Part shown: in pieces, positions 10,701 through 57,924 of the stretch
Layout: the number at the start of each line of letters is the position of its first letter
Position numbering within the stretch: position 1 is the stretch's first letter
NCBI RefSeq assembly: GCF_921293095.1
Contig: NC_060252.1
Span: forward strand, 5,518,001 to 5,582,000
Length of the DNA: 64,000 bases
Source of the DNA: Ischnura elegans
Taxonomy: Eukaryota; Arthropoda; Insecta; Odonata; Coenagrionidae
Direction: 5' to 3'
Made by a program: the position numbers and the translations under genes
The notes under the pieces: generated by a model
What the model saw: the letters and a program-made list of their open reading frames with translations, nothing else
What the model was told of the DNA's origin: nothing
Database searches by the model: none

Positions 10701-13700
10701 AGACACTCTATTTTTCACAAACTTAACCACAAAAATCCCTGAAATGTGGTGAGACGTGACGTAAACGACGCGATCTCCAACGGCTTGTGCTAGCTTGTGA
10801 AGACATGTGATCTTTCTAGGAGGATATGGCACGATGGCACCAGATGGCACCACCCGCGAAAGAAAATAGTCCCAGACCGAATACAGTTTTATCGATGAGA
10901 TACAATTTTATCGATGCATATGAATTTGCCAGTCCTCTTGCATCTTTTTTCGTCATTAAAGGAAATAAAGAAACAAAACCTTCTAAGTAACTTCCTAAGC
11001 GCGATTTTTGTATCTTGATTGTCCACCCTCGTATTTAGGTACGAAAACTTCCTGTGCCGTCTGGGATGTAACATGATGTCACCATCCATTTTAAATAGCA
11101 AAACGATTTCGTATATTACTCACCACCTTTGAAGGAGAAATTTGTCTGAGGAGAAACGTCTGAGGAGAGCGAAAATCTGGCTAATGATTGGTTGTAAGCA
11201 CATCCCGTCTTTGGGGGTACATGGATCACGTAATCTATTCAAAAACTAGGCATCACAAAAAATTACCTTACATTTAGATATTAAGGCCCAAGAGGCGACA
11301 AGTGGTCCGCATTTGTGATAGGAATTGATTTTAAAAAAACAATCTACAACAAGCGGAGACCCACCACTCGTAACCACTAACGACCCAGCCCCTATTGTCC
11401 CTCACCATTGTTGCTTTGTGCGTGTGTGTATTGTTGCAGGGACGACGTATCGTGGCGAGTGGGATGGTTGGTACGGGCCCTCCGCCAGGAACGGCAACAA
11501 GCCCCCCTCCGCAGACTACTTGAACCGCGTCCTCGGCAGCAAGGCGGGCCAGGCCCTCGGGGCCATCGGCCTACCTCTCTCCAAGGAGGCCATCTCCAGG
11601 CTGAGGGCCCAAACACAGGTGGACTGCGACGCCGCACCCCAAGGACGCTCTGCTAATGGTAAGGTGTGAAGATAGTGTGTGTTCAGGCGGGTACATGTGA
11701 ATAGAGGAGTTTGGTGGTGAGATATTTGGAGGAGGCGACCGACCATAGGGTGGAGAGAAACCCGGCGTCGGCATTAGCCTGCTCGTAATGAAATGCGCCA
11801 CGGGGACCACAGGTCAACGTCCCAGAAAAGCCCTCTTTAAAGCACTTAAGCTGGCATCTGGAAGACTTCGGAAAATCCACCATCTTTGTGGTACTCCATT
11901 ATAAAGTTTCTTTGATACTTCACTTTTACTTATATCCCTAGTTTTTTACATACTTAACGCGACACGGGTTTCGATGACTAATCATTATCACCAGGCGTAA
12001 ATTATTACGTATTTACCTTATTATTGCAACCTAGTTACCGAACGAAGGAAGAGATGAATTTTAATACGGACGCCAGAATTGGCGATAAGGATGGGTAAAG
12101 ATGTTCGTTTATTCGAGCGCTGTCCTGGTTTTCAATAATTTTAAAAATTTCCAACTTAGACTTATAGAGTTTAATTCGCAGCGGTCGTTGCATAATTTTA
12201 AAATATTCATTTTGAAATCGCTCTTAAGGCAGTTACATATTAAGTGTTTAGAACAATTACTTTTATCGTCTTTGCTTTTTCTGTAAGCACTTAAATGTTC
12301 ATGCTTCCTCACTTCGAAGCTTCTTCCAGTCTGCCCCACGTAGACACCATAGCAATCGCTGCATTTCAGCGAATACACTCCACATCTGTACGATTGATAT
12401 ATCGTATCCTTACAGTTTACAAGCAGTCTTCTCAGAGTGGCATTAGATTTAAAAGCCATGTGGAATTTGTCTCTAGGTAAATGATGAGCCATTTTCAGTG
12501 AAAGTGCATCAAGGTACGTCACTGACCACCACTACTTCTTTTTATTTTCGACCGCAGAAAACATTTGGTCGATAGCCAATCTTCTCTGTTTTCTAAATAT
12601 CAATTTCTGTACTTATTATATTTTAGGAATAACCGTTGGCTGAATTATTTTGTTCTTCCTCTTCGTCAGCTAGATAACTAGGTCACAGTAATAAGATAAA
12701 TAGATAATAATTTACGCCTGAAGATGACGATTACTCATCGAAGCCCGGGTCGCTTTATGTAAAAAAGTAGTGATATAAGTAAAGGTGCACTATCAAAGAA
12801 ACCTTTGGAAAATCCCTGCCGACGCCTGGATTTAAACCCGGGAGCCACTGGATGTAATCCGCTTCATATGGAATAATCCGTTCGGGATCAAAAACATTTC
12901 TTAGGTCATAAAAAATTGTTAGATGCACTATATGGGTACTTCAAAAGAGAATTCCTGCAAACCACTTATGAAACAGCTGAACGTGCTTACCAGTGCATTT
13001 GCTGCAAGGGTTCCACAAGGCTCAGCCCTAAGACCCCTGATATTCAATATTTTTCCACTGACTTCGCCATTGACAGGAGTGATTGGAATTCAGCAGTAGC
13101 GTTGATTGCTTTGAGCGACGACGCAGCCGTTCTAACTACACGAAGCTGTATGAAACAAGAAATATGGGATTGATAGGACGCACTAGATGGCATTATCAAC
13201 TGGTGTAGCAAATGACGAATGCAACTAAGACGAAGCGAATCCATTTTTAAAACCGGATGGACAGTGACGAAAGGCATACTTGCCTGCAGATGAAACAACA
13301 TTTGAAAAGAGGTAGAGCAAGAAAAATCACCGCGATAGGCCAATGGAGAAGTTTATTGGGCCAAGTGTACCTCCCCGGCTCGGCGTGGTTTCCTAACAAA
13401 AGGTCGAATGGAAAAATAAGATACAATAGAAAGAAGATGTCAAAGGTCCAATCAGAAAATGGTAGGCTACGCATAAGGTGAAATTTGAATATATTAAAAT
13501 ATGAGTTAGATCTGTATCAAATATCCCATACTTGTTACTGCAGTACCCCCTGGGCTAAAGGAGCTATGATTTTTGCTAACATTAATTTTAAATGTGATTC
13601 CAAGCTGCTGCTGACAACCACTACTGACTATGTCCTTGTATCAGTGAAGTGTTAAATAACTGAAACAAATGTTCTTGGTATTTAGAGGGACTCAAATTAC

Positions 13701-16700
13701 TCGATATAAGCGATTGATTTCAGAAATAAAAACGATAGGCACTATCGGAACGGATAGGAGATAGACATCTACCTGAAAATTATAGCCCAATTACTTTGCG
13801 GTAATTTTTTTCAAATAAATTTTTAAAAGCGTGGCAAAATTGTGAAGTTTAGACCAATAAAATATGTGTTTAGTAATTGAACGTGTTAATAGTATAACTT
13901 ATCTAGTAATAACCCTAGAGTTTGAAGTGGGCACAACACAGACTCAGTAAATAAAGTATGCCCTACCTAAATTTTATCTGCTTTGTAACAGATATTCATT
14001 AGGTAATCTGAGATCACATTACAATGAATAAGTAAACTCTAAATTGACATACGGTATGATTTCATGGGGTGGAGCTTACCTGATCTCTACTAAACCACCT
14101 AACCCAGATAGCACAAAAGAGCAGAGTTATCTGTTTCTTATGGTTTTCTTACGGAAGAAAATGATAAGCAGCTTATCGTATGCTATGGTACTTAAATAGG
14201 GCAAGGATAAGATTTTAATGAAGAATGGGTAAGGAATGCCGTCAAATATCCTCAGATTAACACAGGTGGCTTCTGTTGAATGAGAGCCAAAGGCGGCAAA
14301 ACAGCGTACTACACATGCTACATGCCTTACATACACATGCCTTTAAAGCCTAGCGGTGAAATTCAGCGAGTCTTTATGAAAGATAAACAACTGATAACAG
14401 ATTTTCTTGGAAATAGGAAAACATTTTAACGGCTGCAGATTACCTGCTGTTGAAAATGCAATGCATAATGTGCGCACTTTTTCCTGATGGCGGAAAAAAA
14501 TAACTGCGGGGCGAATCAAACTTGTTACCTACAGCTTCAATCTCGGCGAGAGTTGTACGGAGACGATTGTAATGATACAGAATGCCTTTAGGGACGGAAG
14601 TATGGACATAACACAGATAAAAAAGCGTCACAGGCGGTTTAAAGTTGGCCGCACATCTGCTGACAGTGACCATGTTCCTTATATACAGAGTATGAGGGTT
14701 CAAGGGGGGCCCTTCGGAGGTACAACACACCGGGGCTGGGAACCAAGTCAGAGACTTACACGCCCGATCACCCGGGGAGGGGAAGGAGAGGAAGGGAAAA
14801 GGAAAGAGGCGCCACCGCGATAGGAGCCCGTCGACGCCCCTGGGATAGGATAGGAAGGAAGGGATGGGATGGGGAAAAACACTTCAACGCTATAGAAGCG
14901 AAGAAGGCACACTAAAACGAAAGCGAAACCAAGCAAATCTATTAATGTTTTAACGACTTTAGAGGACCATTCTACGAGGAAGAATGATCCAACTATCAAA
15001 TCGTAAGATGGTTCTTGCATACAATTATGTAAAATGGATTGACCTTAAAATTTCTCTGAGCTCTGGGGGGGGGGGGGTTATCCCCCAAAACGCCTTACGC
15101 GTGGGCCATGTGTGCAACTGACACTGCATCTCACTGTTTCCTCAAATCCCTCGCCACTTCCTTTACTTTTCAAAGTGTGGTGATACGTCTTTAAATCTTG
15201 CAGATTCGTAACGTAAGCCCCAGACACAGGGAACTTCGATCGTCTGTCATTAACTGGATGAGCGAAAGCCTCCACAAAAAAAGAATAATCAGCACTCGAA
15301 GAAACAATTGTCACCGAATTACGAGTCATGTTCAATCAAAATGTATTCCAAGTAGAAATATTCAAAATCAAAATTATCACAAAAACAGCCATGAAAACTA
15401 ATAATCTCATAAGAAACATAGCCAATACTTATACTAAAGAAAAGCTAAGTACAAAGCTGTGTTTGCCTGCCAGCACCAAAAATGATTTTTTGAGAAATCA
15501 CTCCTTCAGTCGGCCGATGTGTTCGCCGAAAAGCAAGAGAACAGGCCGACCCCCGAACAGTGGCAGAGTGGAGGGGGGATCTTGCAAGGGAGTGGGGGGG
15601 AATAAGGCGATGTCCAAGTTAACTGCATCGGTATAAACTTCCGGTAGGCGCCCGTGTTGACTGGGACCTCTGGAAAACGCCTCGTCATCCAAGCAGGGGT
15701 TGGGGGAGACGAGCGTACCGCCGGGTTTCCTCTCCTCTATCTCCTGGGTTGGAGACATGGCCAAGTGGGGTGATCGCTGGTTGAGGCTGGCTGGTTGAGC
15801 TGGTGGATGGCCATTGGAATTCAAGGAGGGGAATAGTAGGAATAGTGAGGTGTTGGAGGGAGAGAGAATCGTGATAGGACTGTGGAGAAGCTAACCAGGT
15901 TCCTCAAGGTGCTGAAGGAAGTGGATCTGACTTTGAAGCCCTCAAAGTGTGAGTTCTTCAAGGACAAAGTGGACTATTTAGGCTTCGGGATAAGTAATGA
16001 AGGAATAAAGCAGGGTGAGAGGAAAATCAAGGCAGTCAACGATTTTCGTAGGCCCGTGAATGTCCACGAAGTTAGGCAATTTGTGGGATTGACCAGCTTC
16101 TTTAGAAGATTTATACCAGGTTTCGCGATTCTTAGCAGTCCCCTGACGCGACTGACAAAGAAAGATGTAGCCTTTGAGTGGGGCCAAGAGCAGCAGAGTG
16201 CATTCCAAGAATTAAAAAAGAAATTGGTGGAACGACCAACGTTGGCCTTATTCGACGCGCAGGCGGTGCATGAAGTACGCACCGACGTCAGGAAGAGTGG
16301 CCTGGCTGGGATCCTGTTACACACTGTGTTTGCCTGCCAGCCTGAGGCATAATAATGCAGTTTGACTTCTCATTCCAAACTGCATTCTTATGCCTCAGCA
16401 CCCACTTCCCCTTGATTGCAAAGGAGTAGGTATTCCTCCGCCGTACTAACTATATAAGTCTTGATCTCCAGGTGGGCTGGCGTCGGAGGGCATCGTTCGA
16501 AGGACAGAGTTCGGAGACGAGAGTTCCGAGAAAAGAGTCTCCGAGTCTTTGAGCCGAATGGCCTTTGGCGAAAATGCTTTGCGCGAAAAATCTCCCGCTA
16601 AGGACTTTTCGCGCGAAGTTCTGCGGATAAGTTCGGAGGAATTTCTTGGGGTACCAGAAATTTTTTGGGGGTACCAGAAATTTGTGGGGCGTACACTAAA

Positions 16701-35819: not shown

Positions 35820-36193
35820 AATTGCATGGTACCCTTGTTACCATTATTGTACACCTGTGCACTAAATGGTACTATAGTGTACATCATGTACACATCATGT
35901 ACCACTGCAGACTCTGTACTCACTGTACACAATTCAGCGCCAATTGTTACACAAGTTACACACAAAACCTACACAGATTGGGCCACTTTACCACAAAGTT
36001 ACACAGATTGTACACTGGAGTTATAACTATGTACACTATGGTTACACACAGCCTTCACAGAGTTTACCATTTTCCTACATTAATGGTACACTCAAAAGTT
36101 ACCATTAGGTTACACAAATGTTACCATTCTTGCTCTTTTTATTATTTTTCTTTTTTTTATATTTCTTTTTTTTCGCACATTTTTGTTTCCAAT
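35820..36193 (+). promoter_or_regulatory. GTAC / GTTACAC motif cluster 2, likely 5' region of the LINE
   Basis: About eleven GTAC, five TTACAC and five TTACCA words lie in some 300 bp directly before a pyrimidine-rich run and the ORF1 start. The frame happens to be open from 35822 into ORF1, but the protein would be low-complexity with no recognised domain. This reads better as an untranslated promoter region of the element. Shared words with 28930-29170 suggest a common origin. Confidence 0.45.
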
Positions 36194-36976
36194 ATGGCGG
36201 GCGGTAAAGCTTGTGCTCTCTGTGCTCGTAAAGTTGATTTGCAAGGTGCGCACATAATATGCAGTCTCTGCGAATTGCCTGTTCATAAGAGATGTTCTAA
36301 ACTAAAGGACTCTATATTCTCGGTAATCGTTAGTCAGCCGGACATCGATTGGTTTTGTAACTGCTGCAATCCTAGAACGAAACCAACTGACGACACTGTA
36401 CCAGCTGCACAGAGAAATGTGATCGAAGAGCTCAAAACTTTGGTGCTGGATATGAAAAAAGAAATTGAACTACTGAAGGAACAAGTACAAACTGCGAAAA
36501 CTCCCACACGTGATACCCAGCTCACTCTAACTTCCTCGGAAACTGCTGAATCCATGTTTGCCGAATTTAAAGATCGCCAGATAAGGGCATCAAACGTTAT
36601 CTTATTCAATGTCGCAGAAGACCCTAATGCTGAGGAAACTGCAAAAGTGCGTGATATATTAAAAGTGGTTCCTGATGTGTCACTAAACAATATTCGCGTG
36701 TCCCGTCTCGGCCGCCCTTTGTCTGGCAAGCAACGCCCGCTTAAGGTCACTTTTAAGAATGCAAGTGATGCTCATGCTGTTCTGCGGAACAAGAAATTGA
36801 TTTGCGACAAGGACATAAGGATTCGCAGTGATCAAACAATATTAGAGCGAAATTATATGAAACAGCTGCAACAGGAGCTCGAGCGTCGTAAGTCCTCCGG
36901 TGAGCCGAATCTTACGATAAAGTACATGAATGGTTTTCCCAAAATTGTGAATCAGCAAGCATCAAAAAACGATTGA
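36194..36976 (+). CDS. LINE ORF1 protein with PHD-type zinc finger (260 aa)
   Basis: The ATG at 36194 (AATATGGCGG) is taken as start because the Cys/His module follows at once. Residues 7-58 form a C4HC3 pattern (C7, C10, C23, C26, H31, C34, C55, C58) like PHD fingers found in ORF1 of CR1-group LINEs. Residues about 78-105 (EELKTLVLDMKKEIELLKEQ) look like a coiled coil, and the C-terminal half (DRQIRASNVILFNVAEDPNA, then RVSRLGRPL) resembles the RNA-binding part of LINE ORF1 proteins. ORF1 proteins bind element RNA and assist target-primed reverse transcription. The stop codon overlaps the first codon of ORF2. Confidence 0.8.
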   Translation: MAGGKACALCARKVDLQGAHIICSLCELPVHKRCSKLKDSIFSVIVSQPDIDWFCNCCNPRTKPTDDTVPAAQRNVIEELKTLVLDMKKEIELLKEQVQTAKTPTRDTQLTLTSSETAESMFAEFKDRQIRASNVILFNVAEDPNAEETAKVRDILKVVPDVSLNNIRVSRLGRPLSGKQRPLKVTFKNASDAHAVLRNKKLICDKDIRIRSDQTILERNYMKQLQQELERRKSSGEPNLTIKYMNGFPKIVNQQASKND

Positions 36977-39792
36977 ATACAGCTAATATTTCTGTGTATT
37001 ATCAAAATACCCGAGGTATTAGAACTAAACTCAGTCACCTACGAAGTGCAATCTCCATTTCTCACTATGATGTATTTATTCTGACAGAAACCTGGTTGAA
37101 CGACGATATCTCCTCTTGTGAACTGCTAATTCATAACTATGCTATATTCAGATGTGATCGTTCGCGTGAAACATCAGATAAATTATCCGGTGGTGGTGTG
37201 TTGATTGGAGTACATCGTTCCCTTAAGGCTCAGGTTGTTAAATCGCCGGTAAACAATATCGAGCAATTATTTGTGGCCATCATTGGTGCTTCCTCCAAAA
37301 TCCTGATTAGTGCTGTGTACCTACCCCCCAAATCTCATCCTGACTGTTATGAGGCTCACGTTTATTCACTTGAAAACCTGTTAAATTCTTCTCAATATTC
37401 GGAAGTTGTAATTGCCGGCGATTACAACGTGCCAAATGTGAACTGGCTAAATATTACGGACAATAATCCATCCTATCACCAAGCCTGGGCCCTTATTAAC
37501 GGTATGTCATTCTTAGGGCTTTCTCAAAGGAACTCTGTTCACAATAAGCATGGTACACTCCTTGACCTGGTGTTTACATCCTCTGACAAATTACACTGTG
37601 ATATTGTATGTGATCCATTTACTGTCTGTGATAAATATCATCCCGCCCTTTACTTTGATGTGTGCTTGTCCAACCCCATTGAGCTGATTGAGTATTCAAT
37701 GCAATTGTATGACTTCAAAGCCTGTGATTTTGAAAGCCTTGATAACTACTTGATCAATATTAATTGGCCCCAAATACTCTCTAATCAAAATATTGATAAC
37801 GCGACTCATTCATTTTACAGTGTCCTCCACAATGCTATCCAACTCTACACTCCTATCATTAACATCAAAAGTAATGGCTTTCCAAAATGGTTCTCTGCTG
37901 AGCTCAGAAATTTAATATGTCTTAAGAAGCTGCATCATCAAACGTTTAAAAGAACTGGGAGTCATTTAGACTATGCAAAATTTTCTGAAATCAGAAGGAA
38001 GTGCAAAATCCTATCTAAAGAGTGCTACTCTAAGTATATGGACGAGGTTCAATCATCCATTTCACATAATACTAAATATTTCTGGACTTATGTCAAGAAT
38101 ACCAAACAGATGGACAAATTTCCTCACCACATGACCTACGACAATATGATTGCTGAAAATTATAAAGAAATAGCTGACCTATTTGCCTCCTGTTTTGTCA
38201 AAGTCTACAGCAATCAACAGCCTGACAACTTAGTTATACCTAACTATGACACAACACTCAATCTGAGCAAGCTTCACATTTCTTGTGAAAACATTATCAG
38301 CAAACTGTCTCATCTAGATCTAACAAAGGGTACTGGCCCTGATAACATTCCTGCAATCGTCCTAAAAAGTTGTCGTCATTCATTAGCCTATCCTTTGTTC
38401 ATATTGTTTAATAAATCCCTGGAAAGTGGCACAGTCCCAAGTGCACTAAAGACCAGTTATGTTGTACCCATCTTCAAAAGTGGAGATAAAACTGATGTGT
38501 CGAACTACAGACCAATTATAATTCAGTCTGTAATAACCAAAGTTCTTGAGAGCATAATTGTAGACAAAATAGCTCCTGACTTAAACTCGCTGATAGTGGA
38601 AGAGCAACATGGATTTCGGCCAGGTCGTTCCACTGTAACTAACCTCCTAATATATCAAGAATACATAATAAATTCCATGTCCCAGCACTCTCAGGTTGAT
38701 TCAATCTATACAGATTTTTCAAAGGCATTTGATAAAATTAATCATAAAATTCTAATTGCTAAACTAAAAGCATATGGTATAAGTGGTCAACTTCTAGCCT
38801 GGGTTGAAAGTTACCTACATGATAGGAACTTGTATGTTAAAGTGAGCGGAGTTCTGTCCTCTGTCTTCACTGCCAATTCTGGTGTACCACAAGGGTCGCA
38901 TTTGGGGCCACTTCTGTTCCTAATGTATATTAATGATATCAACTTCCCCCTGCATCCATTCAAGTACTTACTATATGCTGATGATTTAAAAATTTATGGC
39001 TGCATCCGATCACTTGAGGATTGTAACAAATTGCAAAATTGTCTCTACAAATTTGAAAAATGGTGTAATGATAACCTCATGGCACTAAACGCATTAAAAT
39101 GTAATGTAATAACCTTTCATAAAATTAAGTCTCCAATTATGTACGACTATAGCTTAAATAATGCTACTATCTCTAGAGTTAGTAGAATATGTGACTTAGG
39201 TGTTACATTTGATTCATCCCTGACATTTCAGTATCATATCCAATCCATAGTCATAAAAGCTACTAAAACAATGGGTTTCATATTCAGAATTTCAAGAGAT
39301 TTTGATAATATTCATACTTATAAGATCCTCTATTGCACTTTAATCCGCCCTATTCTTGAGTATGCCTCTATTGTATGGTCCCCGTTCTATAACATTCACA
39401 TCAAAGCTATTGAGAGTGTGCAACGCAGATTCATTAGATTAGTATCCTACAGATTTAACATCCTCCCTATTATTTATGACTTAACACTATCCCTTCTTAA
39501 TCTGTTACCTTTGGCAACCCGTCGATTACACCTGGACATAACATTCCTTCACCGTCTACTGCATGGAGACATTGACTCTGTTCATCTGGTAGAAATGATC
39601 CCTTTCCATGTCCCCATTTTAAACACTAGGCAAACATTCATGTTTTCACTCCCTCATTCTAATAGAAATTACGCCTTCCACTCACCCTTAACCAGAACTA
39701 TGCGGAGCATTAACTACAAATGTAGTAACATTGACCTTTTTAATTTAAATCCAAAGAATTTAAGGAGGGAGCTGCCTTTGTTTGTGCAATGA
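36973..39792 (+). CDS. LINE ORF2: endonuclease-reverse transcriptase (939 aa)
   Basis: Residues 1-235 are an apurinic-type endonuclease: YYQNTRGIRTKLSHLRS, ETWLNDDI, GDYNVPNVNW (from residue 149) and DKYHPAL in the place of the final SDHxP motif, as in several related LINEs. The reverse transcriptase follows with GPDNIPAIVLK, YRPIII, HGFRPGRST, FSKAFDKINH, NSGVPQGSHLGPLLF and the catalytic YADD at 668-671. The C terminus has ILEYASIVWSP and VQRRFIRLV. The enzyme nicks target DNA and copies its RNA from the nick. No ATG lies at the frame's start; the first codon used here is TTG overlapping the ORF1 stop (TTGA), suggesting termination-reinitiation or a lost ATG. Confidence 0.9.
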   Translation: MNTANISVYYQNTRGIRTKLSHLRSAISISHYDVFILTETWLNDDISSCELLIHNYAIFRCDRSRETSDKLSGGGVLIGVHRSLKAQVVKSPVNNIEQLFVAIIGASSKILISAVYLPPKSHPDCYEAHVYSLENLLNSSQYSEVVIAGDYNVPNVNWLNITDNNPSYHQAWALINGMSFLGLSQRNSVHNKHGTLLDLVFTSSDKLHCDIVCDPFTVCDKYHPALYFDVCLSNPIELIEYSMQLYDFKACDFESLDNYLININWPQILSNQNIDNATHSFYSVLHNAIQLYTPIINIKSNGFPKWFSAELRNLICLKKLHHQTFKRTGSHLDYAKFSEIRRKCKILSKECYSKYMDEVQSSISHNTKYFWTYVKNTKQMDKFPHHMTYDNMIAENYKEIADLFASCFVKVYSNQQPDNLVIPNYDTTLNLSKLHISCENIISKLSHLDLTKGTGPDNIPAIVLKSCRHSLAYPLFILFNKSLESGTVPSALKTSYVVPIFKSGDKTDVSNYRPIIIQSVITKVLESIIVDKIAPDLNSLIVEEQHGFRPGRSTVTNLLIYQEYIINSMSQHSQVDSIYTDFSKAFDKINHKILIAKLKAYGISGQLLAWVESYLHDRNLYVKVSGVLSSVFTANSGVPQGSHLGPLLFLMYINDINFPLHPFKYLLYADDLKIYGCIRSLEDCNKLQNCLYKFEKWCNDNLMALNALKCNVITFHKIKSPIMYDYSLNNATISRVSRICDLGVTFDSSLTFQYHIQSIVIKATKTMGFIFRISRDFDNIHTYKILYCTLIRPILEYASIVWSPFYNIHIKAIESVQRRFIRLVSYRFNILPIIYDLTLSLLNLLPLATRRLHLDITFLHRLLHGDIDSVHLVEMIPFHVPILNTRQTFMFSLPHSNRNYAFHSPLTRTMRSINYKCSNIDLFNLNPKNLRRELPLFVQ

Positions 39793-44009: not shown

Positions 44010-46243
44010 ATGCTATATTTGTCCCAAATCGACTACATTCTAGTGAAACAAAGATTCAGGAACCAGGTGAAGGACTGCAAAAGTTATACAGGGGCAGATA
44101 TCGATAGTGACCATAACTTAGTTATGATGAAATGCCACCTTAAATTTAAAAAGTTGAAGAAAGCCGTGAAAAACATGGCAGGTTGAAAAATTGAGGGAGG
44201 TTCAGCATCAACTGGCTTTTAATGATGCTGTAGAAAATAAAATAGGGGAGGATACGACCAACAAACCAATGGAAGAGAGTTGGAGAACCATTAGAAGTGG
44301 TCTGCAGGCAGCAGCTGAGGAAGTTCTTGGTAAAAGAAGAGTCGTCATGAAAAAACCATGGATCACGCAGGAAGTATTAGATCTCATTGAAGAAAGAAGA
44401 AAATACAAGGTTGCGAAAACAGAGGAAGGACAGAATCGTTACAAGAGAATAAGGAACGAAACATGTCTTAAAGCGCGGAAGGCTAGAGAAACGTGGATGA
44501 AAAGCATTTGCGAAGACGTGCAAAACAATCTTAAACATGGAAAAGTAGAGGCCGCTTATAGGATAGTGAGACACCACTTTAAGGAAAGGGGTGTAAGATG
44601 TAATACCCTTAGGGACCAAAACGGAGAACTAATGATTGAAAACGAAGAAAAAGGGAGGAGATGGAAGGAATATCTGGAATATTTGTACAAAGGAAGCAGC
44701 CTCAGAACGAATGCTATCGAAAACGAGAGGGAAGTGGATGCCGATGACATGGGAGCCCCAATTTTAAGATCGGAATTTGATGCGGCTGTAAGAGACCTCA
44801 GGATGAATAAAGCGTCTGGCATTGATGACATTCCTGCAGAACTAATTAAAAATTCAGGAGAGAAGACGTTGAATCAGCTATACAAAATCATTAGTGAAAT
44901 GTATACGACAGGTGAGATACCAAAGGATTTCGAGAGGAACATTATAATCCCTATTCCTAAGAAAAAAAGAGCGGAGAAGTGCGAAGATTTTAGGACCAAA
45001 AAGGACCAGATGATTTTAGGATGAGGACCAATTTAGATTCAGAAAAAACAAAGGCACAAGGGAAGCAATATTGGCCCTAAGACTGCTCATAGAGAAGAGA
45101 ATGGAAAAGAACAAGCCAACATTCGTTGCGTTTGTGGAATTAGAGAAAGCATTTGACAACGTGGATTGGAGCACAATGCTTGGAATCCTAAAGGAAATTG
45201 GGGTTCTGAAATGGAAAAATGGGGAAAAAATGACAGAAGAATCATCCACAGTTTATACAAAAACCAAGTAGCCGTGATAAAATCAGGGCCCAGCTGTGAA
45301 GAAGCAAGAATTAGGAAAGGAGTGCGACAAGGCTGTACATTGTCACCCGTAATTTTCAACGTTTAATTGAAAAAGCCATTAATGAAATCAAAGAAAAGGC
45401 ATTGGGAGTGAATATCCATGGAGAAAAAATTAGCATGCTAAGATTTGCCGATGACATAGCCGTTATAGCAGAAACAGAGAAGGATTTGAAAAATATTCTG
45501 GTTAATATGGGTAGGGTAATGAGTAGATATCAACTGAAAATAAGCACGAAGAAAACCAAGATCTTAGTATGCAGCAGAAGAGAAGAAGTCAAGACCAACA
45601 TTAAAATAGGGAGGCAAAAACTGATAGAGGTGGATGAATTCTGTTATTTGGGAAGCAAGATAACTAGTGACGGGAGAAGCAAGAAAGAAATTATCAGCAG
45701 AATAGCCCAGGCGAAGAGAGCATTCCACCAAAAGAGAGACCTGCTTACAGCAGGAAACTTAAATATGGAAGTAAAGAAACAATTTATAAGAACCTACATC
45801 TGGAGTATGCTCCTATACGGAAGTGAGGCATGGACAATGACCGCAGCGGAGAAAGCAAGGATAGAGGCCTTTGAAAAGTGGTGCTTCAGAAGAATGATGA
45901 AAATCAAATGGATCGACCGAGTTAGTAACGAGGAAATCCTAAGAAGGGTAGGAGAGAATAGAAGCCTCATAAAAACCTTAATAAGAAGACGTAACAACCT
46001 TTTTAGGCCACATCTTGAGACATGATGGCCTGATGAAGACAATCGTCGAAGGACAAGTGGAAGGCAAGAATGGAAAAGGAAGACCCTGAACAAAATATAT
46101 GGAACAAGTAAAGAGAGATGTGAAAGAAAAGAAATACGTAGGTGTGAAAAGATTAGCTGATAGGAGAACTGAGTGGAGAGCTGCGTCAAACCAAACCTAG
46201 GATTGTTGACCAGTAATGATGATGATGATGATGCTATATTTGT
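44010..46243 (+). mobile_element. 5'-truncated LINE with perfect 13-bp target duplication
   Basis: ATGCTATATTTGT occurs at 44010-44022 and 46231-46243, directly flanking the element (44023-46230), which ends in a (GAT)n tail. The element starts inside the endonuclease (SQIDYILVKQRF, DIDSDHNLV). This is a textbook target-primed insertion. The protein type is the endonuclease-reverse transcriptase group common in arthropods (RTE/BovB-like by motif). Confidence 0.85.
44023..46025 (+). pseudogene. LINE endonuclease-reverse transcriptase, truncated and frameshifted
   Basis: The blocks appear in order: end of the endonuclease (to about 44190, then a stop), the linker and RT fingers at 44191-45015 (GIDDIPAELIKNSGEKTLNQ, IPIPKKKRAEKCEDFR), a frame change with apparent deletion of the YRxIS-LL region near 45000, FVELEKAFDNVDW at about 45125, GVRQGCTLSPVIFNV at 45320-45366, then LRFADDIAVIAETEKDL (catalytic DD) and the FCYLGSKITSDGRSKKEI thumb region in 45402-46025. 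Every catalytic block remains, but in three frames, so the protein cannot be made. Confidence 0.85.
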
Positions 46244-47923: not shown

Positions 47924-49027
47924 ATGCCTGGGTCTACAGCAAAAAGGAAGAAGAACCGCAGTGGAAAATGTGACAGTAATGCATCGATCACATTTGAACA
48001 ACCAAAGTTAGTTACCGATCTCCAGAAATTAGAATTGTCGGCGGTGACTGAAGAGGCTGAGAAACCGTGGTTCCATCCCTCCGTGAAAGGAATCGACCGC
48101 AGCATGCCTCGGCCATCGCCCGCTGCCTCTAAGAGAGTTCCCATTGTGACACTGCGTGGAGTTGACGATACCATGAAATTAATTAGTCTCCTGAGGGAGA
48201 TTATTGATAAGGAAGGTTTTACCATTGGGTATCGCCCCGATAGGTTAGCTGTTCACATACGAAAGATCTCAGACTTTGTGTTGGCGGTGAATTTCTTCGA
48301 CAAGTTAGGCCTGCAGTATCACTATAAAAATACCATAGAGGACAATCGTAAGCGTTATGTTCTGCGTGGCATCCCTTCTGGGAATGAGCCCGACATATCT
48401 AACGCTTTCAAAGAACGAGGCTTCATTGTTCATGACGTTCATCGTCTAGTAGGTCCCAAATCATCGCTTTCGGCTCCTGTTTTCGTATTTTATCACACAC
48501 CTCTGCCCGGAGGCCCCGAGATCACTGGAGTCAAAAGACTGGGAAAATGGATGGTGAATATAGAGTCGTATAAGGGCACGAGGAGAGAGCCCATGCTGTG
48601 CGTACGGTGCTCCAGGTATAATCACACCGCAACGTTTTGCACAATGGATCCACGATGTTTCAAATGCGCCGCAGATCATGAAGGCAGCCTCTGCCGAGTT
48701 ACTGCGGTTTTCAAATGTTGCAATTGTAATGGGAACCACCCCGCAGTGGCCAAAACTTGCCCCATGTACTTGCGCGTGAAAGAGTTCAACATGAGAGCTA
48801 GGGAAGGAGTAACTGGCTCACATTCCGACCTCTTTCGTGCTGTCCTCGGAAAGGCAAGCATTACTTCGAAACCCAAAAAACCTCCGAGTAGACTGCCGAA
48901 GCTGATCGCCAGGAGTTTTGTGGTGGTCGCTTGGAACGCCCGCGGAGTGGACCTAGGTGACTGCCCGCAGTTCTTCGAGTTCCTGGAGACTCAGGGCGCC
49001 CACCTGGCATGCATCTCGGAATGGAAG
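47924..49027 (+). CDS. Jockey-derived gag fused in frame to endonuclease start (block A)
   Basis: From the ATG at 47924 the frame is open for 368 codons to a donor-like AAG|GTGAAA. Residues about 145-215 resemble the PRE_C2HC domain of Jockey ORF1. Three Cys/His knuckles start at residue 226: CVRCSRYNHTATFC, CFKCAADHEGSLC and CCNCNGNHPAVAKTC. From residue about 331 the same frame continues as SFVVVAWNARGVDLGD and LETQGAHLACISE, the opening of the Jockey ORF2 endonuclease. In ordinary Jockey elements ORF1 and ORF2 are separate, so a deletion has fused them. The frame remains open past 49027, but similarity stops there. It is either a retrotransposon remnant or the first exon of an exapted gene. 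Confidence 0.7.
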
Positions 49028-49834
49028 GTGAAAGCTTTCTCAAACACACTTCACTTCAGTATGAATTATTCCAATGGCATATCTTTCACGTCTCTCACAA
49101 CAATCCCCCTTGTAACTTGCGATAATTTAAATGTCACCACTGCTCATGACATAATGCCTAAGTATACTTAAATCTTCCTTTTTGCGTTTATTAAAAAAAA
49201 TATTAAGCTAATATATGCTGACACAATTCGGATTCCACTATTCACAAAAAAATATCACTGCCTACTGATAAATCGAATGAAACAAGCTAACACAAACAAC
49301 TGATGTTCATATACAGGTATAGAGAAGCTTGAGCCTACTGTCTTTTATATCGTAACCTAATTTATGTGACATAAGACCTTGGCGAACTGTATGTATTTAA
49401 AATCACTCCAAGAAACATCTAGGTTTGCTTTTCTTTCAGATCCCTTATGACCCACACGTATGAAATATTAAGTGTACCAGTCATATATGCATGTTATAAT
49501 TTAGAATTTCTCCTTTTTTCTTCATTTCTTGTCATGCATCATTTTCGTGTAGTTTCTTTTTCATCTAAAGTTGATACTCCACCCATACCCAAAAATGGGC
49601 TTTTAAAGTGATCAAAATGATATCGCCACTGTAAATCTCAGCTTCTTAGATAAGTCACCCATTCTGGTGGTGATTCTTTCATGTAGATTCTTGTGTGACT
49701 CATTCCATTTGTTTATTTTGGATTGTATGGGCTATAAGTTATTTGAATGATATCCTGTTCCTTTGCCTTATGTCCTAAATATTTCTGATGAATATGACAG
49801 TCTGTGAATAATTTTAATGTGTATTATACAACAG
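49028..49834 (+). other. candidate intron or insertion between Jockey blocks A and B
   Basis: It begins GTGAAA and ends TACAACAG. It is AT-rich with no recognised element. The word GAAGGT occurs across both borders, so it may instead be an insertion with a 6-bp duplication. Confidence 0.45.
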
Positions 49835-50086
49835 AAGGTTCCCGTGGCAGCCGCAGTTGGCAATGGCCGCTGGTCGGTCATCGGCTCAGCCGCAGGAGGG
49901 CTGCTGGTTCGCACTGACGTGGCCCACAAACAGCTGCAGATGCGGACTACCGTGGTGATGGTGCAGGTGCAAACCAAGATGGGTGTGGGGCTGCGGGTTG
50001 CCATGGCGCGTGTGGGACCCAACGATTCCTTCTCACCAGACGAACTGCTGGGGGCACTGACCCAGTGCCCTGGCGATCAGGCCCTG
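49835..50086 (+). CDS. Jockey endonuclease middle (block B)
   Basis: 84 open codons in phase 0 with block A. GLLVRTDVAHKQLQMRTTVV, VQVQTKMGV and PNDSFSPDELLGALTQ are the middle of the Jockey ORF2 endonuclease. The preceding stretch (VAAAVGNGRWSVIGSAA) diverges from the usual sequence. The block ends at PGDQAL, before a weak donor (CTG|GTACTA). GC content is far higher than its surroundings. Confidence 0.65.
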
Positions 50087-50925
50087 GTACTAATAACAAT
50101 TATTTATCCTTATGCATATTCTTACTACCAGAGCAGGCACATAGCCAAGGGGGTTTTGGGAGCTTCAGCCCATCCCTCCCCCATTGTATTTGTTCCACAA
50201 CCATTTGCAGGAATCATTCACAAGTGTCCACTGCTGCCTAGACCAAGAACTAATCTCTCCTTGATGGGACATCGTTTGAGCTATCAAAAGAAGGTTGTTA
50301 TTCGTGTCTAATTATTTGTTGTCAGTCAACATTATGAAACGTATAGCAAGCTACCTTGTGAACGAGAATTGCACGGGGTGATTAGGGGAAATGGTGATGA
50401 ATGGCAAAGAAGTGTGCCATACCGAGGTATAATGGACCCTAATGTTCATGATGCCTACTCCTGCCAATTAAATTGCCTTCCAGTAATTTCCTAATGTTTA
50501 TATCAGTAAGTATGTAGTCTATGCAGTAATTTTTGTTGCAGTCAGTAACATATTTGGCATCGCATGGGTGAAGATTATTGGGAAGGTCCCCAATGACAAG
50601 GCTCAGGAAATACTTTTGGTAGGGCAGGAAATTCCTCTAGGAACGAACCTGTGAAGCATCTGTTTAACATCCAAAAAGATACATAAAACCCTACCTACCT
50701 GCCTAAGGAAACCTAATAAAGAAAATAAGCCCAACATTTACAGTTGAAGCTTATAAATACATTTCAGAAATGTCAAAAACCGCCAGAGTATTAAAGTGAA
50801 AATAGACATTATTAAATCTCCTTTGCAACTAGACAACATTTAGTGATGAATAACTGGAAAGATTCAGAGCATCGAACACAGGAGTTATTATTGCAGAGAG
50901 TAATATATTCATCACCCTTGTGGTG
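50087..50925. other. start of the 5.8-kb gap between Jockey blocks B and C
   Basis: No coding signal is recognised. This gap (50087-55902) is either an intron or an insertion; ATCAGG occurs at both borders. It contains the inverted repeat at 50926 and the piggyBac element at 51690. Confidence 0.4.
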
Positions 50926-51007
50926 GTGCGAAAAATCCACAGAGGAAAAATCATTCGCCTTGATCCCGGTCACGGCGAATGATTTTTCCTCTGTGGATTT
51001 TTCGCAC
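50926..51007. repeat. perfect inverted repeat, 34-bp arms, 14-bp loop
   Basis: Arms 50926-50959 and 50974-51007 are exact complements. No transposon termini or flanking duplications are seen. Confidence 0.92.
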
Positions 51008-51139
51008 TATTTGTGCATTGCAGGTGACTCCGTAAAAAGTTATCACCGTGGCTAGTCCCGATATACTTAAATAAATTCTTGTGGTGAATGAAAGAGTCAG
51101 GTCCATGATTATAGACTGACTGTTGAGCGAATGAGTGTG

Positions 51140-51310
51140 CACTGTCCCTTCCCAATAAAAAACCAGAGATGGTAAGAGCCAACCAAAGCCAAAGAAGAAC
51201 CAGCCGACCTTTGATGAAAACAAAACGTGTCCAGTCCATCTCATTGTTCAGCAATGTGCAAAGTAGAGGCTGAGAGGAGCCACTGTGATACAGTTTCATT
51301 CATTTCAGCA
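51140..51310. repeat. dispersed repeat shared with 54280-54420
   Basis: Both copies contain GTGTCCAGTC, CTCATTGTTC, a GTGC(T/A)AAGTAGAGGC block, GAGGAG.CACTG and a CAGTGGTGCA-type end. Class unknown; both copies flank the piggyBac element. Confidence 0.5.
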
Positions 51311-51998
51311 CTGTGCAAAAAAATGAGTAACTTTTTTAATGAAATGAATGGTTTTCTTATGCTGGCAAATTGACAACTATTATGTACCAACTACATATCC
51401 CGTATACCAGTATACTATCCAAATCCCACCATAGTTATACATACTAGCTTTGCATCTGTCCCAGTGGCATCTATATTTTTGTTGATATATATATTTATAT
51501 GTGGTCTAATCAATTCAAGACTACTTAAATGGAAGTACCGATTAGCATGAGTGCAAATGTCTGGAGAAGGGATTATCCGAATGCAAGTTAATATTGAAAA
51601 AGTATGCATGTCCAAAACTCATTCTTTTGAATCAATAGGATTTTGATTTGAGAAGTGAGTTAGGGAGTTTTCTAATTTTTCCTATTTAACCCTGTGGAAC
51701 TCACGCCCCAGAACGCGAACGCGAGGACTCCCGCTGAGCCTGTCTGGCTTTTTTCTCTTTTTGAGGTCTTAACCTATGAAAGTCAATTATTTTTCTTCTT
51801 TTGGTTGTTTAAATCAAATTAAGAATACTCAAACGGGTCATTTCATTAAAATCAAGACCATTTACTTCTGATAAAAAATTATTACTTCATATCGGGTGGG
51901 ATATAAAATAAATTACCATTACATGTTCTTGATTTATTGACTCGTGAAACCACTACACAGTGTTAATATTAGGATAGAAAGAACACTATAAAATAACA

Positions 51999-53470
51999 TC
52001 AGCAATGAAAATTATTGTACAACCACGCACTGCAGAAGAAATGTGCATGCTCAAGACAAATACGCTTTCCACATTTTTTGCCGACGTATCTGGTAAATCT
52101 ATTTTTCTTGTATCCAGTCTGCACACCTTTTTCAAATTCCAGCGCACTTGGGGTTCTCTGTACCTTTAGATGCCTTTGGTTCATCTATTCTGTTAGTCTT
52201 GATAGCCTCGTCTAATATTGCCGTAACTAAAATGCCCTAACACTTTGGGGAGTGTTTTATGGTTCCCCTTCATTTCGCGTGTTCATTTAGGAGCTCAGCT
52301 GACAATTGCCTAAGTAACGCTCTGATATTTTACTTCAAAGTTTTTCTCCGAGGTAAAAAATGTAGGAATTTACCACAGCAATATTTAGTATAGCAGAAAT
52401 AACTGTCATAGGCAACGCAGTGTATTTCTTGATACATTTTATGCCGTGAATAACCGATCTAGTGTATTTACTCCAGATTTAGTCATGCTGTAAAAAGTTA
52501 TCATATCTGGCTTTCTTTCGTCTCCAGTACATTCATTTATTTTTTTTGTTATGGTGCATTATTGAGATCATAATCACATATTTTTTTCTTTCTTGGAATG
52601 CATGATGCAAAAGTAAAATTCTTGCGGAAAGAAATAAACTGGATTTTTCATGCCATTTTTTTTGTTTAAACGAAAAAGGAGGCAATTCCAGCTCATTTTT
52701 GCGAGTTGTTCCAACCTTGGTAAGTCGGCATTTCAAGAGTTCATTTACTAAGCCAAAACCTGTGAACCAATTGTCAATCGTAATATTTCAACCAGCCAGG
52801 GACGCAGACTTACAAAAAATATTGGGGGTGCCTAAACCGGGGATCTTGGCCTGGGAAATTTTTTAAGTAGTGAGTATTAAGTTTTTTCAAGCATTTTAGA
52901 AGAGTCATATGATCAACATATAACTGATAACTCGAATCTCGATATCTGGACACTCCGGGAAAATCGGCAAGCCTGACACATTTTTTCTTCACACCCACAA
53001 CGAATTTTTGAGGGGGCTCGGGCCCCCTCAGGCCCCATGGAGTCGGCGCCACTGCAACCAGCACTGCTTATAGGGGGCCATAACCTCTTCGCGACATCAG
53101 AATGACTGTTGTTGACTGAATACTTTCCGTCGGGTTGTTTACCAGCATAAACGGCTAAGTAATAAGCATAAAAAAACTCTACATAGATATAGAGTTCTAG
53201 AGTTAGATCTACCTACGAAAGCAAAAGTTTTTATCCCTTATTTCGTTAGGCTTACTTAGGATGTATTGCTGGAATGCGCAACGACCTCGAAAACCCTCAA
53301 GTTTCTCATCATTGGTTGTGTATTCACCAATAATGTAAGCACTTTTACAATTGCTGTCAATTTTTTCGAATATCTCACGAATCGCAGCAAGCTTATCAAT
53401 TGTTTTGTCTTCATTGCTGTTCTTATTTGTATTTTATGTAAATTTTCAAGCATCTCACTATCAGAAAATC
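51999..53470 (-). pseudogene. piggyBac transposase, frameshifted and interrupted
   Basis: Read on the minus strand, recognisable blocks in order are NCKSAYIIGEYTTNDEKLE and FRGRCAFQQY (about 53400-53250), YAGKQPDGKYSVNN with KRLWPPISSAG (about 53160-53060), then after the inserted MITE NITIDNWFTGFGLVNEL (about 52790-52740), CRLTKVGTTRKNELELPP (52733 on), ISIMHHNK (about 52550), and a Cys-rich end TRYVGKKCGKRICLEHAHFF (about 52110-52040). These follow the order of piggyBac transposases, which cut and paste DNA at TTAA with an Asp triad. Stops and frameshifts separate the blocks, so no enzyme can be made. Confidence 0.85.
52797..53054. mobile_element. hAT MITE (CAG.GGCGCCGACT family), copy 1
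   Basis: The right end carries the complement of CAGTGGCGCCGACTCC; the left is a diverged CAGGGACGCAGACTTAC. A perfect 8-bp duplication, CAACCAGC, flanks it (52789-52796, 53055-53062). It interrupts the piggyBac transposase between SSAG and NITIDNWF. Confidence 0.9.
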
Positions 53471-54153
53471 ACTGCCAGGATGCTAAAACAGAATACTCAC
53501 GGTTTTTTGGTGGAAACTCTGGCGCAGTTGAAACATCAGCGTGGAGAGCTCCTCCGATTTCTGTACACTCTCCCGTCAGAATGACCATGTACTCCTCGAA
53601 TTTCTCTGCTCCCGAGTTGCGAGGTGAATACACTTTTCGAGAAGAGGTCTATTTATAACAACCGTCACTGCTAATATTGTGTGAAACCATAACAGTTAGC
53701 TTAGTTTGTGTCAACTCAAGTGCGCTTGCAATTGTAGCAGGAAGAGCAACAATGACTTCTCCGACACACTCCCATGTGAATAGTTTTGACTTTCAAAATA
53801 TCATGCTGATTAGGCAGAGAAGTACCTATATGGGGAGTAGAATGTTAGAAGTTAACCAGAAAAGCTTACATTGTCTAAGCGAAAAATAATAGACTAAGAG
53901 TGAGAATCAAAAATGCAACGTGAGCACTCGTGCAGAGCCTGAGAGGCTCAGTCCACGTGTATATGAAGCAAAAATATCATATTTCAACCTTATGATAGAC
54001 TGATAGGGATATGCTGCGCATGTAAAACATTATCATAAGAGTAAGGAAAAGGTAGAGAAAATCTGAGCACATTATTGAGAATTGGTCAAGAACTATGACG
54101 AAAATATTAACAATGTGAGCCTGTCAGGCTCAGCGCGAGTTCCACAGGGTTAA

Positions 54154-55902
54154 GTTGGCATTTGGATTTTCTGACGTTTCTGTTTATCACTTCCTGATAC
54201 TTTCTCACTTAGTAGCTCCACCTCAGGTGGTATTTTCCCCTAGATCATCAAGGCCACCAAGCTGCAACTACTTTCTAACCCTCCTCGGGATGTGTCCAGT
54301 CTCTCTCATTGTTCCACACAGCCCTGCTCCCACACTGCCCTAATCGGTGTGCTAAGTAGAGGCCAAGAGGAGGCACTGCAGCACAGTATTTGCAGTGGTG
54401 CAATTTTCCCTTTTGTCTCCAATGCCAGGTGCATGCCTATGCTGATTTAAAATATCACTCTATTCTGTTACAGTTTCCCTTCATTTCTACCTGCACACTG
54501 TCATAGGTTCACGTATTATACAATTAAATTTCAGGTGCGCATGTATAACAGCTCAAACATTAATTTCACTCTGCACTTGTGAACAAATGTAAGTGGTGGT
54601 TACGTGCAATGTAGTCCTGTGTGAAAATTATATGTACAGTAATAATATCACCGTCTACTCTTACAATCAAAGCAAATGCTTACCTTCAAACGTCCTCCTG
54701 AAGTTTTATGATGTAATTTTAAGAACCTATTTCATTAGATGTGGAGGACATGTTATAAGTGGATTACCGATGTGGGAGAGTTGCAAGTAATAAATTCGAT
54801 TATCCAGCTATGAGCTCACTCAGGGAAAATAATCATTGAATGTTATTGTGATAAATAAACTGGGTCTCTTCTTTAGTGAATTGGACATAGGTGAACAGAA
54901 AATTATGGCTATTTGTCAAGCATTTTTGTAGGGCAGATTGTTATCTTGTGCAATTAGCAATGCTTTCATGTTTTCCAATGCTCATTGGGAGGTAAACGCG
55001 ATCGTGAAACACCAGAGCTTTTTGTACAATCAGCTTTACTAATGAGCATCAAATGAGTGCCCAAATGCTGTGGTGTACAATGTGTAGCAAATGTGAAACT
55101 GAAATGTTACGAAAGCATCTTTGCATAAGTCATGATCTCTAGAAATAAGAAAGTTCATTAAAAATTAAAATCAAATTATTTTTGGCGATGTAGCTACCCC
55201 TTAATTTTTTCTCATCCTTTTTTTAGGCCTCCTGCCACAACAGCGTCCAGCTCTTTGCATTAGATGCCATATCTCCATTAACATGCATGGAATATAAAAA
55301 TACATTTTAATAGTCTGGAATTGAGAGAGAGAATTTATTCATTAAAAAAAGTTGAACAAGTTACTCAAGTTCGTAACAAATTCCAATTTTCTAATTTAAA
55401 GTTTTGACGATATGGCTACTCCTTTGATTTTCCTCACTTAATCATGTTAACCCATTAGTCATCTAATGGAAAGATGCCTTCATACAATTTGATTAACAGC
55501 ATTGCAATTTCTTAAACTGTTGTAAGCATTACAAAAAGGTTTTTTTACAACTGAATGAAAATGGTTTGTCAAAGTTATTTGTGATCAGTCGCCGCCAGTG
55601 TCAATTTTGTGGTCGTAAGACAGTGGAATGACCTAGGTATTGTTATTTTTTTACGTTATTATTGTTTCAGAACTTAAATTAGTATAATTAAATTGGATAA
55701 ATTATTGGAACTATAATTTAGTAATTCAATTCAGTCTGCATCAATTCATGAATGCCCTCTCGAAGGAAATAAGTAGTAAGAATCATTGCTGTAATTGTAT
55801 TTTCTACTTATGAATTACCTAAAAACTCAAATTTTACCAATTGACTCTTAAAATTAAGAAGCCAAGAAAACTATTAATTGCATCATTTTGATTCTGCATC
55901 AG
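54154..55902. other. remainder of the gap before Jockey block C
   Basis: Apart from the repeat at 54280-54420 nothing is recognised. It ends TTTTGATTCTGCATCAG, a reasonable splice acceptor. Confidence 0.4.
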
Positions 55903-56367
55903 GATCCCACCATCATTTTTGGTGACTTCAGTGCCAGGCATCAAGTGTGGAATGCCCCCGTCAACAACCGGCGTGGCAAGGCACTGAACCGCACTGCCGA
56001 GGCCAGCCAGCTGCGAGTGTTTGGCCCCAAAAATCCGAGCCGCTATTACGGTGAGGATGAGTCTCCGTATGTGGTGGTGACGAAGAACGTTCCCGTGGTG
56101 CCATCTATCCTGCCAAAGAGGATGGCGACCGGTGGAGGGGGGGAAGAGGGACGTTGTCCAATGGTGGTGCACCTGAGGAACTGGCGCCTGCCCAAGGCGA
56201 GCAGGAGGGTGGAGCTGCCGGCCGAGGTCAAGGAGCTGATTCGTGAGAAGAACCGCATGAGGAAAATGTGGCAGACGACAAAGTTCTCACTGTTCAAGGA
56301 GGAGCTGGATCGCAAGAGAGCGGAGGTGAGGAAGAAAGTGGAAGCTGTGCGACGAAGTGCCAAGTGA
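55903..56367 (+). CDS. Jockey endonuclease C-terminal part and linker (block C)
   Basis: 154 open codons plus TGA, in phase 0 with blocks A and B across an AG acceptor. DPTIIFGDFSARHQVWNAPV carries the GDFN motif with Asn changed to Ser. VFGPKNPSRYYGEDESP and VTKNVPVVPSI continue the domain, but the final SDHxP catalytic block is replaced by KRMATGGGGEEGRCPM, and the Asp after SP is changed. NWRLPKASRRVELP and a basic coiled region to AVRRSAK follow. The nuclease should therefore be inactive, yet the frame is clean. The blocks together would encode about 606 residues. Confidence 0.65.
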   Translation, partial: DPTIIFGDFSARHQVWNAPVNNRRGKALNRTAEASQLRVFGPKNPSRYYGEDESPYVVVTKNVPVVPSILPKRMATGGGGEEGRCPMVVHLRNWRLPKASRRVELPAEVKELIREKNRMRKMWQTTKFSLFKEELDRKRAEVRKKVEAVRRSAK

Positions 56368-56641: not shown

Positions 56642-57924
56642 CAGTGGAACTTGTTTAGTATGTTTCTGAAGGGACCACAAAAAATGAACGTACTAACCAG
56701 GAAAACGTGCTAACGAGGAAAGTAAATAATAGCAGTCGGGGTAATTGCAATCTGTGGAAAAGTCGTCATAATTACATCTACTATCGGTAGTTCTCGTAGG
56801 ATCGCCTTCCTGAACTCTTTTCACCTTTAAAATGAGCGCTACATCGAAAAACAATACCATGTGAATAAAAATCACAATGTTTCGTAGATTTCCCGAAGAC
56901 AATTACATGAAAACGGCGTCTATCTTCCGTGATTAATCCTATATACATTTATAGAAAGAGGGCAAGTAAAGCTAAGTCATTCCTTTTTTGTCGCAGCATA
57001 CTCGGAGAATATAGCAACAACCCTGAGTATGTCAACGGGTTGTTTTTAAACATCATTAAAATTGGACAAAATTATATTAACCTTTAACTACGGCGGCAGC
57101 CGTGCACATTCGCTTCTTGAATGAAATCATATCGATCGATATAGCGATTAATAACACGCAAAATTATTAGATTACGACGTAATTACAAGAAGATTTTTAT
57201 TATACAGTTTAAATATACTTTTTAAAAAGTCTAATGTCGTCTGCTTTCGTGCCGAAATCAAGTATTTTTAAGCTAAGCTTCGCGTGGAGATCCAGAGCAT
57301 CGTCTGCTCCCGCAGCAGTAGTCAAGTAAATACGCACGTACTCCAGAGCCTAAACCGCCTAGACGTCGAGTTTATGCAGTACTGCTTAAGATAAAGTGGG
57401 ATTTGGATAAGACTCATTTCTTCATCATGACAACTCATGCAATAGCAACAATTGCCCACTCGCGAAATTTGTGCGCAGTGGGCACTGCAGAGGCAATAGA
57501 AGGTGAGGAGCTCGGGGTGGGGAAAATCGAGGCTTCTCATTGGCTGCAGATTAGTTAGTCAGACATTCCTGATAAATGGCCGCATTTTATTATTCATCAC
57601 GTCACTAGAATTGAGAAATGCGTTTGGATAAATCACAGTCGAAGAAAGGGATGTGGAATGAATGCAAGAATGTCAATGGCTAATAATAATAAATTAAATC
57701 ATGAATTCGGAGGTTTACGACCCTAAAGAAGATAATAGAGAACGAATTGCGGGTTGCGTCACGGCAAGCAATTGAGCGTACTAACCAGGAAAGCGCAATT
57801 TTTTCAAACGTACTAACCAAATACTTTTACCTGTATTTTGTTCGGATGGTACCGGGACCGAGAGAAATCGACGTACTAAGGAGGAAAACGTACTAACGAG
57901 GAACGTACTAACCAAGTTCCACTG
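56642..57924. mobile_element. pogo/Tc1-mariner-like TIR element, non-autonomous (1.28 kb)
   Basis: CAGTGGAACTTGTTTAGTA and the complement of the right end (CAGTGGAACTTGGTTAGTA) are inverted ends, with TA on both outer sides (56640-56641, 57925-57926). CGTACTAACCAGG and CGTACTAACGAGG words repeat inside both ends. CAG(T)GGAAC-type ends with TA targets fit the pogo/Tigger branch. No transposase is recognised. Confidence 0.8.

Follow-up and report, generated by a model that had tools for sequence, protein, structure and literature searches.

The window considered here is a stretch of 64,000 nucleotides of the odonate Ischnura elegans (assembly GCF_921293095.1, contig NC_060252.1, positions 5,518,001 to 5,582,000, forward strand), in which three open blocks carry parts of the first open reading frame (ORF1) and of the ORF2 endonuclease of a Jockey-type long interspersed nuclear element (LINE), the label deriving from the ORF1 zinc knuckles and similarity and not from placement in a tree. 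From their sequence the blocks are probably the exons of an exapted host gene, encoding a nuclease-dead, RNA-binding Gag protein and interrupted by two gained introns. Their coordinates, with those of the intervening gaps, are collected in Table 1.

Table 1. Features of the candidate gene, in window coordinates; a slash marks a putative splice border.
Feature	Position	Strand	Remarks
Block/exon 1	47924..49027	+	368 codons; start codon, ORF1, three CCHC knuckles, endonuclease start; ends CISEWK
Zinc knuckle 1	48599..48640	+	CX2CX4HX4C
Zinc knuckle 2	48656..48694	+	CX2CX3HX4C
Zinc knuckle 3	48716..48760	+	CX2CX3HX6C
Putative intron 1	49028..49834	+	807 bp, 33% GC; donor AAG/GTGAAA, acceptor CAG/AAG
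Block/exon 2	49835..50086	+	84 codons; endonuclease middle, strongly diverged
Putative intron 2	50087..55902	+	5816 bp; mosaic of old repeats; donor CTG/GTACTA weak, acceptor CAG/GAT strong
Short palindromic repeat, like a miniature inverted-repeat transposable element, in intron 2	50926..51074		many copies, ~87-94% identity over its length
Repeat of ~2.1 kb within intron 2, carrying an additional insert of 267 bp	51685..54154		17-18% diverged from three copies; used as clock
Intron 2 repeat fragment, very old	54350..55056		~66-75% identity in longer matches; short pieces to 88%
Further intron 2 repeat fragment, very old	55227..55457		68-70% identity, three matches
Block/exon 3	55903..56367	+	154 codons (to 56364), then TGA; GDFS, linker LPAEVKELIREKNRMRKMW retained
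AATAAA nearest past the stop	56864..56869	+	497 bases downstream; may be chance

Coding blocks derived from a Jockey-type element

An earlier, sequence-only reading had described the three blocks with their codon counts, a single phase, splice-like border letters and some 600 stop-free codons, and all of this is borne out: the blocks share one phase, their borders fall in phase 0, the border letters are present as claimed, and neither a stop nor a frameshift is found. The reading frame is complete: the context of its start codon (CAACATG) is good, and a stop follows at 56365. Left unspliced, the block 1 frame stays open to 49168 (415 codons counted from the ATG), so that a product comprising Gag only is possible.

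The spacing of the three knuckles in block 1 is one that we take to be typical of Jockey ORF1; all 12 of their 12 zinc ligands are intact, and the same three knuckles are present, as judged by eye, in nine of 10 aligned relatives from the same genome (those left of 34 once near-duplicates were dropped). In that alignment, block 1 keeps 18 of 20 invariant and seven of 10 near-invariant columns. A search of Pfam with block 1 gave nothing above cut-off, and a search of PDB by sequence gave 0 matches. The single-sequence AlphaFold2 model is poor (mean predicted local distance difference test score, pLDDT, 38), with residues 80-165 reaching ~46-67 in an alpha-beta pattern, and an RNA recognition motif (RRM)-like region in the product is proposed with low confidence. 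ORF1 runs in frame into the start of ORF2 (VVVAWNARG...CISEWK; hhalign E 2.7e-7). This fusion, also part of the sequence-only reading, sets the locus apart from most of the fetched in-genome loci: ORF1 and ORF2 lie there in different frames in 35 of 37 pairs and in the same frame in two, many near-identical copies being included among the 37. The distance from the last knuckle to the GDFN motif, here GDFS, is 510 nt, shorter than the 766-1009 nt measured for relatives.

For block 3 there are matches to Pfam PF14529, an endonuclease model (E 1.1e-6; 28.9 bits, cut-off 27.4), and to LINEs of the same genome (hhalign E 7e-19), and the linker following its endonuclease part, LPAEVKELIREKNRMRKMW, is present in in-genome Jockey-type LINEs as well. 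Block 2 was placed by hhalign in an alignment with 14 relatives (35 before near-duplicate removal), with E 0.017 and a probability of 1.3%, collinear over its whole length; its score of 12.65 compares with at most 7.93 among 50 shuffles. For this block BLASTP against 163 relative ORFs yielded no match at E<=1 and Pfam none above its cut-off, and NCBIfam gave nothing for any of the three blocks. The derivation of the coding sequence from a LINE is borne out, block 2 being weak when taken by itself.

Several sites of the endonuclease (the Asn of WN, a Glu, a Tyr, GDFN, the Asp of LDI, and SDH) are presumably catalytic, as in APE-type enzymes. In the comparison with the 14 relatives, those retained are the Asn of WN, the Glu (QET having become SEW) and the Asp of GDF; the Tyr is aligned to an Arg in block 2 and the Asn of GDFN is replaced by Ser, and both the Asp of LDI and the SDH block are gone, the latter within a net loss of ~57 residues from block 3 (41 residues between matched parts as against 98 in the in-genome element L034). 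The GDFS and the altered SDH had been noticed previously, the Tyr replacement being an addition. With the majority of catalytic residues missing, the endonuclease is predicted to be dead. No match to reverse transcriptase (RT) follows the blocks in the window in a tblastn search with the 163 relative ORFs, the only matches beyond 45.3 kb (E<=1e-3) being at 48092-48835 and 55861-56205, and the intact endonuclease and RT of an autonomous Jockey element are accordingly not what is found here.

A single copy, old gaps and frames without decay

The genome comprises 1.72 Gb in 110 contigs, and the match counts for block 1 protein, for block 3 and for the ~2.1-kb repeat refer to candidates scored and not to all candidates. 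At the DNA level block 1 has one other match in the genome, of 68 bp at 88% identity on contig C10; the fragment (L002, C10:63299392-63299459) corresponds to codons 33-55, has other surroundings and is perhaps the relic of a sister copy. The locus is otherwise a single copy, with no RT match in the window. As protein, block 1 had 1462 candidates and, counting itself, 111 scored matches, the best-scoring relatives reaching 32% identity over ~230 residues and short knuckle stretches up to 49%; since many relatives have near-equal scores, the best-scoring families are apparently multi-copy. Block 3 gave 77 matches (150 of 674 candidates scored), the best-scoring other at 35% and the highest at 38%. 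Scans of viral and prokaryote contigs yielded no relatives outside the genome.

The short matches of at most 49%, most from residue ~200, were considered as possible sister exapted genes and set aside, as the 11 fetched places look like ordinary family members. In six of the 11 an endonuclease match lies 0.6-0.9 kb further on, as in ordinary elements; L035, L036, L037 and L042 resemble, at best identities of 66-85%, the ORF2 of other families in the genome, L038 matches ORF1 of another (51-66%), and several of the 11 are broken. Jockey-type matches are clustered at C5:3.05-3.68 Mb and C7:78.78-78.86 Mb, possible transposon traps or clusters of the PIWI-interacting RNA type. Numerous weak endonuclease matches in frames of 232 or 283 codons gather on many chromosomes no more than a few Mb from the contig end (e.g. 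C19:118.6-123.0 Mb, C4:133.8-137.6 Mb and C2:145.0-147.5 Mb) and may reflect a subtelomeric LINE family.

Simple repeats and words of very high frequency are passed over by the DNA repeat searches, and a missing match is therefore no proof of rarity. With that scope, intron 1 has no other copy in the genome, the left 718 bases of intron 2 have a sole match of 196 bp at 68%, its final ~450 bases have none, and neither of its borders yielded a repeat edge. A young transposon as the source of either gap was rejected, the content being single-copy or very old and without such an edge. For the ~2.1-kb repeat within intron 2, identity to any scored copy is at most 82% (79 matches; 40 of 5542 candidates scored); its p-distance to three copies is 0.173-0.177, those copies differing mutually by 0.030-0.053. 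Changes private to the window copy affect 298 of 2102 columns, and it has 25 indel events of its own, 20 of these having a length that is not a multiple of three. A fourth, older copy, available for the first half only, has 21 states in common with the window copy; in the four-copy comparison 118 of 1048 columns are changed in the window copy only and 52 in the fourth copy only, and nine differ in both in different ways. A cautious clock of d ~0.10 was taken as half the corrected pairwise distance. Intron 2 has carried old repeats for ~0.09-0.12 substitutions per site, and the blocks have been separated at least since the 2.1-kb repeat was inserted.

Over that time decay would be expected. The simulations took their substitution spectrum from the private changes and set the indel rate to one half of that counted between pairs, with 75% of indels breaking the frame and events Poisson-distributed. 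On this basis the neutral expectation for the 1818 nt of the blocks at d=0.10 is 6.58 stops and 9.6 frameshifts, and the observed number of each is zero. The probability of neither a stop nor a frameshift is 9e-8 at d=0.10, 5e-12 at 0.155, 2e-4 at 0.05 and 0.006 at 0.03; by part, at d=0.10, it is 3.9e-5 for block 1, 0.12 for block 2 and 0.014 for block 3. As the frames have stayed open since the repeat insertion where decay was to be expected, we infer purifying selection, indirectly by way of the repeat clock: its action in keeping the frame is strongly indicated for block 1 and moderately so for blocks 2 and 3, the putative spliced tail. The G+C content at third codon positions (GC3) is 0.53 in block 1 and 0.71 in each of blocks 2 and 3, the last two values being noisy for such short blocks; these two lie amid AT-rich surroundings and exceed all of the 76 ORFs from the fetched loci with 350 codons or more (mean 0.54, range 0.34-0.68), a set that includes near-copies and in which coding status is not confirmed for each. 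Values of 0.63-0.75 occur in three blocks upstream in the window (7735-8103, 11322-11669 and 17495-17902) that resemble arylsulfatase exons by eye and have no Pfam match at 1e-3.

Putative splicing, and the weighing of alternatives

A LINE copied from spliced-out RNA starts without introns in its ORFs, and the two putative introns would therefore be gains. That the gaps are spliced is suggested by their borders, the frame and the missing decay. With rough scoring matrices, the donor at 49028 is the top GT within 48800-50330 and in the top 3.2% of window GTs, and the acceptor at 55903 is the top AG scanned (top 1.6%). A donor at 49967 (CAG/GTGCAA, phase 0) outscores that at 50087; it was rejected for dropping endonuclease-like residues and is possibly used in a minor form. 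Joining AAG/GTGAAA to GAAG/GTTCCC, three bases past the named acceptor, scores poorly; it would restore EWK/VPV, as before an insertion that duplicated GAAGGT.

Each gap is bordered by 6-bp direct repeats, GAAGGT at 49024-49029 and 49834-49839 and ATCAGG at 50076-50081 and 55898-55903. The sequence-only reading had taken these as a sign of insertion; the repeats are indeed there, and the insertion reading is weakened by intron 1 having no other copy and intron 2 no repeat edge. In the excerpt of PMC3443670, direct repeats of at least 5 bp flank gained (25%) and conserved (26%) introns of Drosophila about equally often, so that their presence decides little here; in Daphnia, 43% of gained introns have short direct repeats, which are there taken as traces of break repair. 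Novel Drosophila introns have weaker splice sites, according to an excerpt of PMC2809761.

The gene would have arisen from a 3′-truncated Jockey-type LINE copy, with ORF1 and endonuclease and no RT, that became a single-copy host gene. The shortened span between last knuckle and GDFN points to a deletion that brought ORF1 and the endonuclease into a single frame; two stretches of other DNA would later have been gained within the frame and be spliced out as introns. The product, of ~606 residues, would have the three CCHC knuckles and the RRM-like region and is predicted to bind single-stranded nucleic acid, RNA or DNA. The endonuclease would be dead, and the open frame presumably maintained by purifying selection, on statistical grounds. 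The idea of a domesticated nuclease-dead gag was already part of the sequence-only reading; it has gained from the single copy, the lack of close relatives and the undecayed frames, and is tempered by the weak second donor and by splicing that is inferred only. The likeliest action, a guess in keeping with the many open relatives in the genome and with knuckles that outlasted the enzyme, is that of a Gag-like protein that would bind RNA, co-assemble with particles of related LINEs, of which the genome has many, and hinder them. The fuller version, a host restriction gene whose Jockey Gag and dead endonuclease poison active Jockey ribonucleoproteins, its two spliceosomal introns gained de novo by break-repair insertion, is regarded as doubtful.

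Several points weigh against the exapted gene with two introns. The locus was picked for being open, and the neutral probabilities need to be discounted for it; openness by itself proves nothing, given that 97 of the 111 protein matches (self included) are also stop-free within the matched stretch, 14 having stops inside. The retained 18 of 20 invariant ORF1 columns are a poor discriminator of selection, the homology of block 2 taken alone is weak, and the clock, drawn from a comparison with only four other copies, may read too high should the window repeat belong to a rare old subfamily. Interference with Jockey particles is a guessed role. Among the splice signals, the acceptor at 49835 ranks among the best 13% of AGs, three others less than 200 bases away scoring higher, and the donor at 50087, its weakness recognized from the outset, is in only the top 19% of window GTs. 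Blocks 2 and 3 without block 1 give a neutral probability of 0.002 at d=0.10, weakening to 0.04 at d=0.05.

The weak second donor and this last value, with block 1 rejecting neutrality unaided, are also what would be expected of a gag-only gene in which selection acts on block 1 alone, with its own frame end at 49168, blocks 2 and 3 being relics left unspliced and open by luck. This is unlikely: blocks 2 and 3 are collinear, in phase 0 like block 1 and GC3-rich in AT-rich surroundings, and block 3 retains the post-endonuclease linker. Rather improbable is a recently dead, functionless Jockey copy split by two chance insertions, for which a young copy would have to have received two cut-and-moved pieces of old DNA, no close copy is found in the genome, the gaps hold single-copy or very old content and not recent transposons, and neutral survival of the frame is ~1e-7, even if the bordering 6-bp repeats, the lost catalytic residues, the absence of an RT match in the window and the weak second donor all accord with it. 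A larger chimeric gene, with the blocks joined to more 5′ or 3′ host exons, is very improbable given a frame complete from start context to stop, though 30 codons upstream of the ATG are also open in frame and the best-scoring relatives align only from residue ~58-60 (a few weaker ones from 4-34).

Elsewhere in the window, an intact-looking LINE of another type at 35822-39792 has an ORF1 of 384 codons with, by eye, a Cys/His-rich PHD-like part, and an ORF2 of 962 codons (RVT_1 9.7e-34). Another LINE RT has left a remnant at 44170-46025 (RVT_1 3.3e-12), and an RT/RNase H remnant of long terminal repeat type lies at 15849-16352.

Related systems and possible significance

Host genes from LINE proteins are few. 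The mammalian L1TD1 has two L1 ORF1-like regions, of an ORF1 type other than Jockey. Like the locus, it is a host gene from a LINE ORF1, with an origin in genome defence proposed; unlike the locus, its evidence is cross-species comparison, and an endonuclease part is not mentioned in the excerpt of the source, which as of 2014 has it as the sole known gene almost wholly of L1 coding sequence (PMC4161310). The EKA genes of powdery mildew, Avrk1-Avra10, also come from a LINE ORF1; as described in an excerpt of PMC4641428, they form a fungal effector gene family, whereas the locus carries an endonuclease remnant and is present once in a large eukaryote genome. In-genome Jockey-type LINEs (L003-L042, L044-L062) share the three-knuckle ORF1, the APE-like endonuclease and the linker, and differ in being apparently multi-copy, in having their ORFs mostly in different frames and in carrying RT (seen in L034; matched in L036, L037 and L042), for which the locus has no match. 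No host gene from a Jockey-type element was among the matches listed from the open-licence literature, searched by title and start of abstract.

If the exapted gene with two introns is real, it would combine a Gag and a dead endonuclease in a gene with introns, and be a candidate inhibitor of active retrotransposons. As the introns are necessarily younger than the LINE, their gain, if confirmed, would be datable by the repeats inside them, and the locus would be a datable natural experiment in intron gain.

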